IMG/VR virus record: IMGVR_UViG_3300042922_000181 | Coordinates: 1-24,460 of that record | Length of the DNA stretch: 24,460 nucleotides | From: a virus | Strand: one strand, 5' to 3' | Shown here: positions 4,624 through 15,281 of the stretch, in pieces | Layout of the letters: the number at the start of each line of letters is the position of its first letter | Numbering within the stretch: position 1 is the first letter of the stretch | Made by a program: the position numbers and the translations under genes | The notes under the pieces: generated by a model | The model's input: only the letters and a program-made list of their open reading frames with translations | Databases searched by the model: none | What the model was told of the DNA's origin: nothing

Positions 4624-4892
4624 ACACCCGCGATGAAGTGCGCGCGCGGATTCTGGCGAAACTTGACCGCATCCCCGACTCCGACGCAGTGACGATCGAC
4701 AAGGCAGACATCCGCGCCCTGCTCGATGAGCCGGTCCCCGCCGACGAACGCGAATGGGAGTACGCCTGCGACAACGGCGAGTATCGGCGCTTCACTGACG
4801 AGGACGGCGCACGCCACTGGGCTGACCGGGGGTACACCGTCAGGCGGCGCAGGAAGCCATCGCCCGCCGGTCCGTGGGAGCCGGTGTTATGA
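4620..4892 (+). CDS. 90-aa hypothetical protein sharing a module with the gene at 453
   Basis: Begins MNTRDEVRARI, like the protein at 453, and contains the same RALLDEPVPADERE segment, encoded by an exact 44-base match (4711-4754 and 550-593). The C-terminal half differs: it is beta-like and basic (EYRRFTDEDGARHWADRG then RRRRK) and may bind nucleic acid. The acidic LLDEPVPADERE piece looks like a portable linker or docking segment. ATGA overlaps on both sides. Function unknown. Confidence 0.8.
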   Translation: MNTRDEVRARILAKLDRIPDSDAVTIDKADIRALLDEPVPADEREWEYACDNGEYRRFTDEDGARHWADRGYTVRRRRKPSPAGPWEPVL

Positions 4893-9019: not shown

Positions 9020-9106
9020 GATAATTGGAACAGCCCCGGAGAGTGTTGGAAGCACTCTATCCGGGGCCTGACCCAAGCAATCGACTCAACCGATTGGAGG
9101 GCTGCG
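9020..9106 (+). promoter_or_regulatory. HNH leader, copy A: promoter -10 and two hairpins
   Basis: A -10-like GATAAT (9020-9025) is followed by hairpin 1: outer stem 9033-9039/9061-9067 (7 bp) and inner stem AGAGTG/CACTCT (9040-9045/9053-9058). Hairpin 2 is AATCG/CGATT (9079-9083/9091-9095) with loop ACTCAAC. GGAGGG (9096-9101) follows at once, five bases before the ATG. The -35 is not clear. Confidence 0.85.
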
Positions 9107-9664
9107 ATGCAGTCTACCCGCGTCTGTTCCATCGACGACTGCGACCGCCCCATGAAGGCCCGCGGCTGGTGCAAGATGCACTGGCACCGCTGGTACGTCT
9201 ACGGAGAAACCTGCCGGCCAGCGGAGATCCCCGCCCGGTGGCAAGCACGGTTCTGGTCGAAGGTAGAACGCTCCGAGGGGTGTTGGACCTGGACCGCCAA
9301 TACGAACCAGTCGGGTTACGGGATGTTCGCCCATCCTGCGCGGGGGATGATTTCGGCCCACCGCGTTTCGTGGGAGATCGCGAACGGTCCGATCTCCGAT
9401 GGCGCGCACGTCCTGCATTCCTGCGATAACCGGACCTGCGTGAACCCGTCGCACATGCGGCTAGGAAGTCACGACGACAACATGCGTGACATGGCTGAGC
9501 GGGAGCGGTCGCGCACGACGAAGCTCACCGCGTCAGACGTGAGCACGATCCGCGAGCTCGCGCGAACGGGCCGGAGTCTCCGGTCCATCGCTCGAGAGTT
9601 CCGCATCTCACCCGGAAACGTCGGCTTCATCATCGCCGGCAAGACGTGGAAGCACGTCTCCTAA
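9107..9664 (+). CDS. HNH homing endonuclease with N-terminal zinc finger and C-terminal HTH
   Basis: A 185-aa protein. Residues 7-25 form a zinc-binding start (C7, C12, C22, H25). Residues 59-130 are the HNH_3 domain: CWTWTANTNQSGYG, AHRVSWE (His85), then HSCDNRTCVNPSH (His104, C106, C111, Asn113, His116). Residues 139-182 form a helix-turn-helix of the resolvase/NUMOD type (LTASDVSTIRELARTG, SIAREFRISPGNV), which should set target choice. Its own promoter-leader lies at 9020-9106. The first five codons (MQSTR) are identical at DNA level to those of the unrelated protein at 12174. It separates the resolvase from ssb, as an inserted mobile gene would. Confidence 0.92.
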   Translation: MQSTRVCSIDDCDRPMKARGWCKMHWHRWYVYGETCRPAEIPARWQARFWSKVERSEGCWTWTANTNQSGYGMFAHPARGMISAHRVSWEIANGPISDGAHVLHSCDNRTCVNPSHMRLGSHDDNMRDMAERERSRTTKLTASDVSTIRELARTGRSLRSIAREFRISPGNVGFIIAGKTWKHVS

Positions 9665-9679
9665 CGAAAGGCCAAACCA

Positions 9680-10081
9680 ATGGCAAAGCTCACCGTAGAC
9701 AGCGCATTCGTGGAGGACGTCCTCATCGGCAACAACGGTGCCTGGGGACTCAAGACCGCCGAACCTCACTCGCGGAAGAACGAGCAGGGCAAGTATGAGA
9801 CCGTCGGCCGCACCTTCCGCACGCTGAAGGTGTCGCGCAGTTCCGGCATCCTCCTCGAGCAGTTCAACAAGGGTGACCGGATCTCGTTTGAGGGCCGCGA
9901 GCTCACCGAGTCGAGGAAGTCGGCGGACGGGTCGAAAACGTTCTACGACCTGGTCGTCTGGGCTGACTCCATCACCCGTGCTGGAACCACGCCAACCCCG
10001 GCACCCGATTATGCCCCCGAAGACATATCCGGCGACCCGTGGACCACCACACCCATCCCCGAGTCCGACGTCCCATTCTGA
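9680..10081 (+). CDS. ssb: Single-stranded DNA-binding protein (OB fold)
   Basis: A 133-aa protein with a beta-rich OB-like domain (residues 1-100: FVEDVLIG, GRTFRTLKVSRSSG, KGDRISFEGRELTES, TFYDLVVWADSI), a proline-rich linker and an acidic tail ending ESDVPF. That ending mirrors the DDDIPF tip by which bacterial SSB recruits partner proteins. It coats single strands made by the helicase and exonuclease. Start ATG 9680 has AAAGG upstream (9666-9670). N-terminal residues diverge from bacterial SSB, as is common in phages. It is separated from the other replication genes by the inserted HNH gene. Confidence 0.85.
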   Translation: MAKLTVDSAFVEDVLIGNNGAWGLKTAEPHSRKNEQGKYETVGRTFRTLKVSRSSGILLEQFNKGDRISFEGRELTESRKSADGSKTFYDLVVWADSITRAGTTPTPAPDYAPEDISGDPWTTTPIPESDVPF

Positions 10082-10095
10082 AAGGCGCTGACCTG

Positions 10096-10260
10096 ATGGA
10101 CGAGTTGCACTACAAGGTCTCCAAAGACGAACGCGCATGGTTGGACTTTGTGCTGACCGAACGACCCGAACCACCCCAACACAGGTGCGGGAAATGTCGG
10201 ACTCCCTGGGGAATCACGAACCCGAATTGTCCCGGTCGCGCGGCAGAAAGTCGGCGGTAA
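10096..10260 (+). CDS. 54-aa zinc-ribbon protein
   Basis: Starts at ATG 10096, 15 bases after the ssb stop, with AAAGG just upstream (10081-10085). The N-terminal half is helical (KVSKDERAWLDFVL). The C-terminal half has CGKCRTPWG and then NPNCPGR, half of a zinc ribbon with a possible fourth ligand from the nearby His (HRCGKC). Such short one-finger proteins are common in actinophage early regions. Its stop is four bases before the -10 of HNH leader B, so the leader was probably placed exactly between genes. Confidence 0.72.
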   Translation: MDELHYKVSKDERAWLDFVLTERPEPPQHRCGKCRTPWGITNPNCPGRAAESRR

Positions 10261-10264
10261 GAGG

Positions 10265-10349
10265 TAGAATGGGAACGGCCCCGGAGAGTGCGCTAACACC
10301 ATCCGGGGCCTGACCCAAGCAATCGACCTAACCGATTGGAGGGCTAGCA
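10265..10349 (+). promoter_or_regulatory. HNH leader, copy B: promoter -10 and two hairpins
   Basis: A -10-like TAGAAT (10265-10270) precedes hairpin 1, a 9-bp outer stem (10277-10285/10302-10310) with a short inner GTG/CAC and CGCTAA loop. Hairpin 2 is AATCG/CGATT (10321-10325/10333-10337) with loop ACCTAAC, followed by GGAGGG (10338-10343) and GTG 10350. Most of it matches copy A exactly. Confidence 0.85.
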
Positions 10350-10994
10350 GTGGATGCTACCCCAAAGTGTTCCGAGCCCGGGTGTGAACGGGAAAAGTCC
10401 CCCAAAGCCGGGTATGGGCTGTGCGGAGCCCACTATCAACGGCGTAGGCGCGCGCGGACGCTTGGAGAACTCAAGACAAAGTACGTTCACGCGAGTTCGG
10501 CGCTTGAGAAGTTCCTCGCATACACCGAGGCGTCTAAGTCCTGCTGGTGGTGGACCGGACCGACCAATCAACGCGGGTACGGGGTTCACGTCCACAACTA
10601 TGTGCATACCTATGCGCACCGTTGGGCATGGGAACACCTCATTGGGGTGATCCCGGACGGTATGACCATCGACCATCTATGCACCAACAAGGTCTGCGTC
10701 AACCCCGAACACCTCGAGGTCGTTCCTCTCGGCGTGAACAGTTCACGCAGACACGGAAATCGGGTGTTCTGCCCGCGCGGGCACAGCATGGAGGACGCGT
10801 ACCGACGCCCAGATGGCGACGGGCGTCAGTGCATGACGTGTGTGAAGGATCGGACCCGCAAGGCATGGGCGAACCGCAAGATGATCGCCTGCGAATACTG
10901 CTCCCGAGTGCTGTCGGACGCGAACATGCGAGCCCACCAGCGCAAGAGCTGCCAAGGCGAAGGAAACCCGTACGTGAAGGAGAAGGCGGCGTGA
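10350..10994 (+). CDS. HNH homing endonuclease with three zinc-binding segments
   Basis: A 214-aa protein starting at GTG 10350, six bases after GGAGGG. Residues 7-28 carry C7, C12, C25, H28, like the start of the protein at 9107. The HNH_3 domain at 65-130 has CWWWTGPTNQRGYG, AHRWAWE (His90), IDHLCTNKVCVNPEH (His109, C111, C116, Asn118, His121). Two further fingers follow: C141, H145, C161, C164 (ribbon like that at the end of the protein at 1468) and a C2H2-like CEYC...HQRKSC (C181, C184, H196, C201). It has the shared leader and looks like a mobile gene with extra DNA-reading modules. Confidence 0.92.
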   Translation: MDATPKCSEPGCEREKSPKAGYGLCGAHYQRRRRARTLGELKTKYVHASSALEKFLAYTEASKSCWWWTGPTNQRGYGVHVHNYVHTYAHRWAWEHLIGVIPDGMTIDHLCTNKVCVNPEHLEVVPLGVNSSRRHGNRVFCPRGHSMEDAYRRPDGDGRQCMTCVKDRTRKAWANRKMIACEYCSRVLSDANMRAHQRKSCQGEGNPYVKEKAA

Positions 10995-11236
10995 CGTATA
11001 GCGAAGCGATTGCTGTGAAGCGTGGGCAACTCCTCACCCAGTACGGGTTCGAGCGGCGGTGGCAACGGTGGGAGAGACCTGTCCGCATTGTTGACGCCCG
11101 ACCCCGCAGGAACGGTGACCACTATTTGGGTTGGGTACACGCAGACACAACCGTGTGGACGGTCAGGTGGATCAGCCAACGAAACTTCGACCGCTACTAC
11201 ACGCCGGTTGGTGACCAAGAAGGAGACCAACCGTGA
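10991..11236 (+). CDS. 81-aa hypothetical protein with VRW core
   Basis: Begins at GTG 10991 in a GTGA overlap with the HNH stop. The N-terminus is helical and basic (VKRGQLLTQYGFERRWQRWE) and the C-terminal half is beta-like with WTVRWISQRNFDRYY. The VRW core recalls the proteins at 1-111 and 716. The overlap means it is either part of the inserted HNH cassette or became coupled to it. No family recognised. Confidence 0.75.
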   Translation: MTYSEAIAVKRGQLLTQYGFERRWQRWERPVRIVDARPRRNGDHYLGWVHADTTVWTVRWISQRNFDRYYTPVGDQEGDQP

Positions 11237-11436
11237 GCATCGAATTTCGATACCGGTGCTGCGAACACTGCGTCGATGACCCTAGCTATCACGAGGATGA
11301 ACCACCCGACAGTCACACCGTGTCTTGCAGCACCGGTCCACTTAGCCGGTGCGAGCAGGGCGACCAGCGCGTCCCTTTCGACACCGAGCGGAACGCCGCG
11401 GTTCCGGCTGACACAACAGGAGAACAGACACCGTGA
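11233..11436 (+). CDS. 67-aa cysteine-rich hypothetical protein
   Basis: Starts at GTG 11233 in a GTGA overlap and ends in another at 11433. The N-terminus has YRCCEHCVDD (three Cys and a His), then two more cysteines around residues 32 and 40, so a single zinc site is plausible. The remainder is acidic, Thr- and Pro-rich and likely disordered. A minimal adaptor protein is a fair guess, nothing more. Confidence 0.7.
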   Translation: MSIEFRYRCCEHCVDDPSYHEDEPPDSHTVSCSTGPLSRCEQGDQRVPFDTERNAAVPADTTGEQTP

Positions 11437-12047
11437 CAATCGACGTTGAACAACTGGTCGCTGATCATAAGAAGGCGATCAGCACTCAGGACGGCATCGA
11501 GTTCCATTCGGTGCCGTCTCTTCTTTCCCAACTCCGCGACGCAATCCACGGCGGCGGACCAGCGGACGGTATCGGCGGAGCGGGGAGAACGAAGCTCCCA
11601 TTTCAGGCGGCAGCGTTCGACCTGTACAACCTGATCGAAACACAGGTGTGGGAAGCACACCGCGAGGCGTTCAACCGTGTCAACGGTGCCGACCATCCCG
11701 AAACCCTGCTGTCCGAGTGGGCGGCATGGGCAACCACCGAAACCATCGTCACCGTGGGGGGACGGAGCATGTACGCGCCCGCCGTGGTCGCACAGTGGAT
11801 CCAAGCGATCGAGGACTATTTGGATCCGCCCCGCCTGGCACCCATCGAACTCCCATGCCCCGCCTGCGGCGAACGATACGAATACCGGGTCGTTGACGGG
11901 GAAGAACTCCGATCCGCCGCACTCGCATTCCGACGCGACAGGAACACCGGAGACACCCTCGACGCAAGGTGCGGACCCTGCGGTGTCATCTGGCTACCCG
12001 GCCAGTTCATGTTCTTCCTCACCGCACTCAACGCAGGAACTACCTGA
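11433..12047 (+). CDS. 204-aa conserved hypothetical protein with C-terminal zinc ribbon
   Basis: Starts at GTG 11433 (GTGA overlap). The first 130 residues are helical (VEQLVADHKKAI, VPSLLSQLRDAIHGG, TLLSEWAAWATTETI), a pattern I have seen in actinophage hypothetical proteins next to replication genes, but I cannot name it safely. Residues 147-185 hold a zinc ribbon: CPACGERYEYRV, then CGPCGVIW. The layout suggests a nucleic-acid-binding accessory. No catalytic motif seen. It is the last gene before HNH leader C. Confidence 0.8.
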   Translation: MTIDVEQLVADHKKAISTQDGIEFHSVPSLLSQLRDAIHGGGPADGIGGAGRTKLPFQAAAFDLYNLIETQVWEAHREAFNRVNGADHPETLLSEWAAWATTETIVTVGGRSMYAPAVVAQWIQAIEDYLDPPRLAPIELPCPACGERYEYRVVDGEELRSAALAFRRDRNTGDTLDARCGPCGVIWLPGQFMFFLTALNAGTT

Positions 12048-12087
12048 GAAGACGCCGAAAGAGGCGGTCTCTCGAACGCATGTTCGG

Positions 12088-12173
12088 TACAATGGAAACG
12101 GCCCCAAACCGAGTGCGCTAACACTCGCCGGGGCCTGACCCTGAATCGAACTGAACTCGATTGGAGGGCTGCG
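12088..12173 (+). promoter_or_regulatory. HNH leader, copy C: promoter -10 and two hairpins
   Basis: A -10-like TACAAT (12088-12093) leads to hairpin 1: outer 12100-12105/12130-12135 and inner CGAGTG/CACTCG (12110-12115/12122-12127) with loop CGCTAA. Hairpin 2 is AATCGA/TCGATT (12144-12149/12157-12162) with loop ACTGAAC, then GGAGGG (12163-12168) and ATG 12174. Both stems differ from copy A but still pair. Confidence 0.85.
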
Positions 12174-12776
12174 ATGCAGTCTACCCGCCCCATCCCCGAG
12201 CGCGTCCATGGGACTGCCGGTGGCTACACCAACTGGAATTGCCGGTGCGATTCCTGCCGCGACGCTTTCCGCGTCAAGCATTACGAGTACATGCAGCGTC
12301 GGAAGCAGAAGAAGCCACCGGCAGACGTTCATGGGACTCAGAAAGGTTACGAGGGTTGGGGTTGTCGATGCCAGCCCTGCCGTGAGGCTCGCGGGCAAGT
12401 GACCAACCAGGCCCGCGGACAGAAGTCGCCGTACATGTCGCGAGCCGACCGGCGCAAGAAGCGGGAGATTGAACGCGAGGAGGCTGAGCGGCGGCGAGCA
12501 GAAAGGCCGATCGTCTACAACACCGCCCATCAGCGCGTCCGGAACACTCGCGGAGCAGCGAAGGACCACACGTGCGAGTTCTGTGGTGCCCAGGCACAGG
12601 ACTGGTCGCTCAAAGCGGACGCGAAGGGAATGATTGTGACCATCCGTGCGAGCGGAACGGAGGAGCGGTATTCGGGGGACCCGATGGACTACAGACCCCT
12701 CTGCCGCCCCTGCCACGCAAACTACGACCGGCTAGCACGATTCCTCGGTCCGAAATTCGAGAAAGGTTGCTCCTAG
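12174..12776 (+). CDS. Zinc-module protein with C-terminal HNH-like fold
   Basis: A 200-aa protein. Residues 12-31 and 53-72 are two tandem copies of a module HGTxxGYxxWxCRCxxCRxA, 41 residues apart, each with three cysteines plus His, so each can hold a zinc ion. A charged helix (residues 90-112, RRKKREIEREEAERRR) links to a C-terminal zinc domain: CEFCGAQ (C134, C137) and YRPLCRPCHANYD (C177, C180, H181), the pattern of an HNH-like treble clef. Catalytic His and Asn are not certain, so it may bind DNA without cutting. It carries the shared leader and the same first codons as the gene at 9107. Confidence 0.82.
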   Translation: MQSTRPIPERVHGTAGGYTNWNCRCDSCRDAFRVKHYEYMQRRKQKKPPADVHGTQKGYEGWGCRCQPCREARGQVTNQARGQKSPYMSRADRRKKREIEREEAERRRAERPIVYNTAHQRVRNTRGAAKDHTCEFCGAQAQDWSLKADAKGMIVTIRASGTEERYSGDPMDYRPLCRPCHANYDRLARFLGPKFEKGCS

Positions 12777-15206: not shown

Positions 15207-15281
15207 GGTTCTGTAGCTCCAATACGGTTAGAGCCCCGCTTGTTTGGCGGGAGGTTGCGGGTTCAAACCCCGTCAGAACCG
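15207..15281 (+). tRNA. tRNA, probably Asn (anticodon GTT)
   Basis: Full cloverleaf: acceptor GGTTCTG/CAGAACC (15207-15213/15274-15280), D arm GCTC/GAGC with GG in its 11-base loop, anticodon stem CCCGC/GCGGG (15235-15239/15247-15251) with loop TTGTTTG, T arm GCGGG/CCCGT with loop TTCAAAC (15262-15268), discriminator G15281. The anticodon GTT (15242-15244) and G73 fit Asn. Oddities: no base 26 between D and anticodon stems, T at position 37 and no encoded CCA. It lies 36 bases before an HNH gene. Confidence 0.88.

Follow-up and report, generated by a model that had tools for sequence, protein, structure and literature searches.

Three repeated leaders in a phage genome are most likely small antisense RNA genes of the scr4677 kind

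Three copies of a two-hairpin element stand in front of separate genes in the virus record IMGVR_UViG_3300042922_000181, the whole of which (24,460 nt, or 24.5 kb; hereafter, the window) was analyzed here, and they raise the question of which RNA they encode and on which strand. Among the genes of the window are those for DnaB helicase, replication initiation, exonuclease, terminase, portal and major head proteins, and nothing in the collection of named phages is closely related to it. A preliminary description had regarded the element as a sense 5′ leader only. Comparison with relatives suggests that the three “leaders” are most likely small minus-strand antisense RNA genes, of the same kind as the Streptomyces RNA scr4677.

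As first described, all three copies show a -10-like hexamer and two hairpins, the second followed by GGAGGG (Table 1). Copies A and B share 92% identity over 50 nt, and on both strands the copies fold with z scores of -3.95 to -4.41, a stability that none of 200 dinucleotide shuffles equaled. The inner-stem changes between copies A and C that had been taken as evidence of a sense RNA are real, but they are kept equally well on the other strand, and the sense stem of copy B is degenerate, with 3 bp (GTG/CAC). Of the genes beneath, which had been called HNH or zinc-finger genes, the first two are HNH_3; Pfam gives nothing for the product of the third, which is similar in part to distant PHROGs (PHROG 4160, E 9.7e-18; PHROG 4234, HNH, E 2.5e-8).

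Table 1. Observed and predicted features of the three copies and the genes behind them (window coordinates)
Feature	Position	Strand	Basis
Copy A putative antisense RNA gene, -10 box to terminator stretch	9020..9116	-	R2 34.5 bits, E 1.3e-9
Copy A candidate antisense -10 box TAGACT, within HNH gene codons 2-4	9111..9116	-	conserved TANNNT; sequence
Copy A predicted antisense RNA body, 5′ AGCC at 9103 to hairpin 1 end	9033..9103	-	
Copy A U-rich stretch	9032-9020	-	
Copy A sense -10-like box GATAAT	9020..9025	+	sequence; sense -10 enrichment, phage copies
Copy A Shine-Dalgarno GGAGGG, overlapped by predicted antisense RNA	9096..9101	+	sequence
HNH_3 endonuclease gene behind copy A, 185 aa	9107..9664	+	Pfam E 4e-12; PHROG 3593
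Copy B putative antisense RNA gene	10265..10359	-	R2 39.7 bits, E 2.4e-11
Copy B candidate antisense -10 box TAGCAT	10359-10354	-	
Copy B predicted antisense RNA body	10277..10346	-	
Copy B U-rich stretch	10276-10265	-	
Copy B sense -10 box TAGAAT	10265..10270	+	sequence
HNH_3 / zf-His_Me endonuclease gene behind copy B, 214 aa, GTG start	10350..10994	+	Pfam E 2.7e-13; PHROG 826
Copy C putative antisense RNA gene	12088..12183	-	R2 32.0 bits, E 8.7e-9
Copy C candidate antisense -10 box TAGACT	12183-12178	-	
Copy C predicted antisense RNA body	12100..12170	-	
Copy C U-rich stretch	12099-12088	-	
Copy C sense -10 box TACAAT	12088..12093	+	sequence
Cysteine-rich, zinc-finger-like protein gene behind copy C, 200 aa	12174..12776	+	
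Hairpin 1	9033-9067 (A), 10277-10310 (B), 12100-12135 (C)		

To collect relatives, we used a search pattern consisting of a GC hairpin plus CTGACC; blastn against named phages was too weak for so short an element, and worked once ten leaders were pooled. The pattern matched 37 viral stretches, about 30 of which carry the same element; in bacterial genomes it matched 97, almost all of them from Actinomycetota. One candidate, L052, was set aside as a chance or degenerate match. Model R1 was built from ten viral copies in the sense orientation and displayed strong covariation, while model R2 was built in the antisense orientation with the window sequence left out of training. The window copies were recovered blind by these two covariance models, neither of which contains window sequence, with R2 assigning all three to the minus strand at E values of about 1e-8 to 1e-11, and the many further copies that the models located agree with the earlier expectation that relatives would carry the element.

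R2 matched 50 of 297 Actinomycetes genomes, with up to 8 copies per genome, and 0 of 189 alphaproteobacterium-class control genomes outside the pre-picked centre, the sole match among 190 being the genome chosen because it already held the pattern. The phage genes behind the element encode HNH, NUMOD4-HNH, AP2-HNH, endonuclease VII and T5orf172-type proteins as well as an integrase. Among the 36 genes adjoining it in the viral set, Pfam identified 12 HNH_3, 3 NUMOD4, 2 AP2, 1 endonuclease VII and 1 T5orf172, and 6 matched a PHROG of endonuclease VII; by eye, further viral copies precede genes for HNH-like, DUF2637-like and small mobile-element proteins. Named examples are the HNH genes of Arthrobacter phages Phrank15 (gp79) and 1191A, an HTH gene of Rhodococcus phage ReT1v-1 and the tyrosine integrase gene gp34 of Gordonia phage Annalisa (L199 2493-2588), close behind which lies a second integrase gene, gp36. 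The genes beneath chromosomal copies are mostly uncharacterised. At 20 loci holding relatives of the first HNH protein, none of these relatives is preceded by the element, which therefore does not belong to the protein family.

In the first alignments the outer stem was invariant because the search pattern had fixed it. In a fresh set of 39 R2 matches, the outer stem also displays compensatory change; 96.8% of the cells are paired and 98 carry double changes, compared with 23 in shuffles, while slid versions of the alignment are all at or below 53% paired. The initial claim of a working structured RNA with compensatory change is supported.

Which strand carries this RNA can be read from its mismatches. 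G-U pairs form in RNA and A.C pairs do not, so that selection acts on whichever strand shows the mismatches as G-U. When 36 phage copies are folded to minimum energy, there are 11 G-U pairs on the sense strand and 101 on the antisense strand, where the fold is also the more stable in 30 of the 36; given that the difference of 11 versus 101 is inflated by composition and by two fixed U.G pairs, we repeated the count on alignments. Structure conserved on the mRNA strand, as would be expected of control of the T4/Aeh1 type (see below), was not found: in a sense-fitted alignment of 38 copies, which leans against a minus-strand outcome, A.C mismatches outnumber G.U pairs 26 to 4, and in members 18 to 1 (p 8e-5). 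In type C copies the outer stem is held by minus-strand U.G pairs only, and in the folds of window copy C these pairs are likewise retained on the minus strand alone. A stricter count of wobbles, confined to internal positions of single-sequence folds, preserves the bias in phages (17 versus 6), shows none in the Actinomadura-type group (5 versus 6) and is reversed in Streptomyces (6 versus 18, mostly one inherited T.G). A conserved, co-varying RNA mainly on the minus strand is, on this comparative evidence, well supported.

The gene starts themselves hold a conserved motif that the preliminary description had missed. Behind a conserved GGCT, the coding side reads, for example, TCTACC, CGTACC or CCTAGT (in the window, TCTACC in A, GCTACC in B and TCTACC in C), which on the minus strand corresponds to TANNNT, mostly preceded by G in phage copies. 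Of 106 copies, gathered by hairpin sequence and not by TANNNT, 91 have this hexamer on the minus strand where the gene begins, compared with 10.8 +/- 3 in shuffles (maximum 19); as controls, a stretch deeper in the gene gave 3 and the plus-strand hexamer 12 of 109. Its offset from the start codon ranges from 0 to 16 over two reading frames, so that the protein does not explain it, and a protein motif was ruled out. We also dropped a reading of TCTACC/GGTAGA as repeats marking the ends of a mobile cassette, the two being accounted for as facing -10 boxes. With 6-7 nt between TANNNT and AGCC in 85 of the 91 copies, the arrangement has the layout of a predicted -10 box and transcription start; in window copies A, B and C this -10 box falls within the genes beneath.

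At the other end of the element, the 14 nt past hairpin 1 on the minus strand contain 38-40% T in all three groups, against 15-17% in upstream control windows, suggesting that the GC-rich hairpin 1 and the U-rich stretch form a probable terminator; the stretch is weak in all three window copies (GUUCCAAUUAUC and similar). With a minus-strand -10 box at one end and a U-rich stretch at the other, the conserved block would read as a complete minus-strand small RNA gene. The same block could in principle work as DNA, as a protein-binding site, bidirectional terminator or recombination site with no RNA involved. Such a role would suit a long GC palindrome that occurs in mobile elements, and the U-rich stretch also fits a terminator for convergent transcription, but the wobble pairs are strand-asymmetric, compensatory changes extend to the outer stem and the fixed promoter-to-AGCC spacing points to RNA, which makes a purely DNA-level element very improbable.

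The sense promoter proposed directly before hairpin 1 is indeed common in phage copies, with -10 boxes in 29 of 37 (control, 6); they are found in 22 of 24 Streptomyces copies and in 4 of 45 Actinomadura-type copies. The phage type would therefore carry two promoters that face each other, with no clear -35 box seen for either one in the window. The frequency of sense boxes in phages and Streptomyces, together with sense folds that are significant too (z about -4.2), fits control by the leader itself, in which hairpins in the mRNA protect its 5′ end or gate the Shine-Dalgarno sequence, those features seen on the minus strand being secondary; mobE and I-TevI are known cases in which a hairpin of the sense RNA sequesters the ribosome site (PMC3014915). 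However, the antisense -10 box is more universal than the sense one, and the wobble bias and the U-rich stretch both lie with the minus strand, arguing against a conserved RNA that is solely a sense leader. We consider sense-leader control unlikely as the main function. In Actinomadura copies (e.g., L127, L080 and L097; several per genome), a GTGTC...GACAC palindrome, possibly an operator, often replaces the sense -10 box just upstream of hairpin 1, and by eye the gene beneath sometimes faces an XRE-like regulator gene.

The preliminary description knew of no element with such a structure; a described relative does exist, scr4677 (Rfam RF02673; PMC3896431). An Rfam search of the window returned nothing relevant at gathering or permissive thresholds, RF02673 included (no match at gathering or E<=5). 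The link came through the relatives: Streptomyces copy L073 matches RF02673 with 29.7 bits (E 1.5e-6; the Rfam gathering cut-off is 41 bits), and until then the match of phage copy L034 (10.3 bits, under the cut-off) had resembled chance. Of 81 Streptomyces genomes, 64 contain an RF02673 match that reaches the cut-off, and R2 matched all 15 of the top RF02673 loci examined, in each case opposite to the strand of the gene and of the Rfam model. The RF02673 model (against L073 980-1097 and L202-L216) matches the strand of the SCO4676-type gene, while the RNA described in the literature and the wobble pairs both point to the other one; the Rfam model may have the strand wrong.

Northern blot, 5′ RACE and RNA-seq established scr4677 as a small RNA of ~70 nt antisense to the leader of SCO4676 (Hindra et al. 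2014, PMC3896431). A separate sense transcript comes from SCO4676 itself, with an end that overlaps scr4677, and scr4677 expression requires sequence within the SCO4676 gene (PMC3896431). Its published 5′ end lies 14 nt upstream of the annotated SCO4676 start (PMC3896431), at most ~20 nt from the start that we predict, if the annotated start is the ATG of the relatives. In S. coelicolor, the target mRNA shifted little when scr4677 was over-expressed, the effect of RNase III was positive, and an effect on translation was not measurable in that study (PMC3896431). These data back the architecture experimentally in one branch of the family. Like scr4677, all three window copies lie, according to R2, over the leader and start of a gene in antisense orientation, and they have the GGCC...GGCCTGACC hairpin and the minus-strand TANNNT in common with it; unlike scr4677, phage copies score below the Rfam cut-off, differ in the hairpin 1 loop and in the first stem, and precede endonuclease genes (HNH_3 in the window) rather than a regulator of the DNA-binding protein type such as SCO4676.

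We think it likely that each copy comprises two facing transcription units, with the minus-strand RNA covering the leader and lowering translation of the endonuclease. A plus-strand promoter just before hairpin 1 would produce the mRNA of the DNA-cutting enzyme, and a minus-strand promoter with its -10 box (TANNNT) in the first codons (2-5) of the gene would produce a structured RNA of ~70-85 nt, made up of 5′ AGCC, a first stem-loop bearing the Shine-Dalgarno complement, a CA linker, the GC-rich hairpin and the U-rich stretch, where minus-strand transcription would end, at the sense promoter. Since complementarity of the small RNA extends over the entire leader, ribosome-binding site included, it would most likely pair with the leader, cover GGAGGG and, much as RNA-OUT acts on the IS10 transposase, block translation or destabilize the mRNA. 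A cis-antisense RNA would scale with gene copy number, fitting a selfish endonuclease that has to act on entry but must spare its carrier during replication. The minus-strand RNA gene is well supported, its structure, strand, antisense promoter position and distribution following from comparison of sequences; we infer its expression in the window phage, its termination and the repression of the endonuclease, and this last step is the least certain because the effect of scr4677 on its target mRNA is small.

A working analogy is offered by IS10, in which RNA-OUT, a small stable antisense RNA with its promoter near the gene start, lies over the ribosome site of the transposase. The element has in common with it an opposite-strand promoter of its own near the target gene start (91 of 106 copies versus 10.8 expected), but RNA-OUT is one long hairpin whereas two are found here, the host group differs and no sequence relation is expected. 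Homing endonuclease genes of T4 and Aeh1 (mobE, I-TevI and segB) are controlled by a sense mRNA hairpin that sequesters the ribosome site, without an antisense RNA (PMC3014915); RNA control keeping a phage homing endonuclease low would be the shared feature, demonstrated there and proposed here. The SAS/ESAS elements of cluster K mycobacteriophages, a 13 bp GGGATAGGAGCCC plus 17 bp imperfect repeats, are likewise repeats with inverted repeats at the starts of unrelated actinophage genes, but no sequence is common to both, and the available part of that account reports no antisense promoter (PMC3203893); by inspection, GGGATAGGAGCCC is absent from the window leaders.

As a kind, antisense RNAs that lie over mobile-DNA genes are already known, and one branch of this family has been described in Streptomyces. 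The present comparison adds a branch in phages, linked to an integrase as well as to several nuclease families that are unrelated; also new are the evidence on the strand and the architecture of two promoters, which recurs. In the literature searched, with incomplete coverage, there was no report of a phage homing endonuclease controlled by an antisense RNA. An isolated and poorly understood Streptomyces small RNA is thereby tied to a wide antisense RNA family in actinobacterial phages and chromosomes, sitting on the first codons of unrelated mobile-DNA enzymes. These cutting enzymes are probably held in check by antisense RNAs, which provides a testable explanation for how free-standing homing endonucleases are restrained in actinophages, and a repeated phage leader should be read with the caution that it may be a gene on the opposite strand.

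The RNA might, alternatively, act chiefly in trans, using its C-rich anti-Shine-Dalgarno loop on other mRNAs, with the gene beneath a passenger or one target among them. SCO4676 is little affected by scr4677 over-expression, the loop of the first hairpin contains a CCUCC-like sequence complementary to Shine-Dalgarno sites, and on the minus strand the hairpin 1 loop often has a YUNR motif, all of which would fit; yet the loops and first stem vary among copies while staying complementary to the local leader, and the RNA is always on a gene start while the gene families vary, so that we hold this reading to be improbable, slightly more so than sense-leader control. We rate just as low the chance that elements act on each other in trans, the RNA of a resident prophage or chromosomal copy silencing the gene for an endonuclease, integrase or related mobility function in a phage that enters with the same cassette. 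If true, the cassette would be a portable immunity and copy-number control system spread across actinobacterial mobile elements.

Elsewhere in the window, we noted a 37-nt direct repeat (1327-1363 and 1378-1414; 95% identity, 51 nt start to start), a 53-nt direct repeat with its two units 4.2 kb apart (541-593 and 4702-4754; 92% identity) and, a little ahead of the terminase gene, a tRNA gene at 15207-15281 (Rfam RF00005, 43.9 bits).
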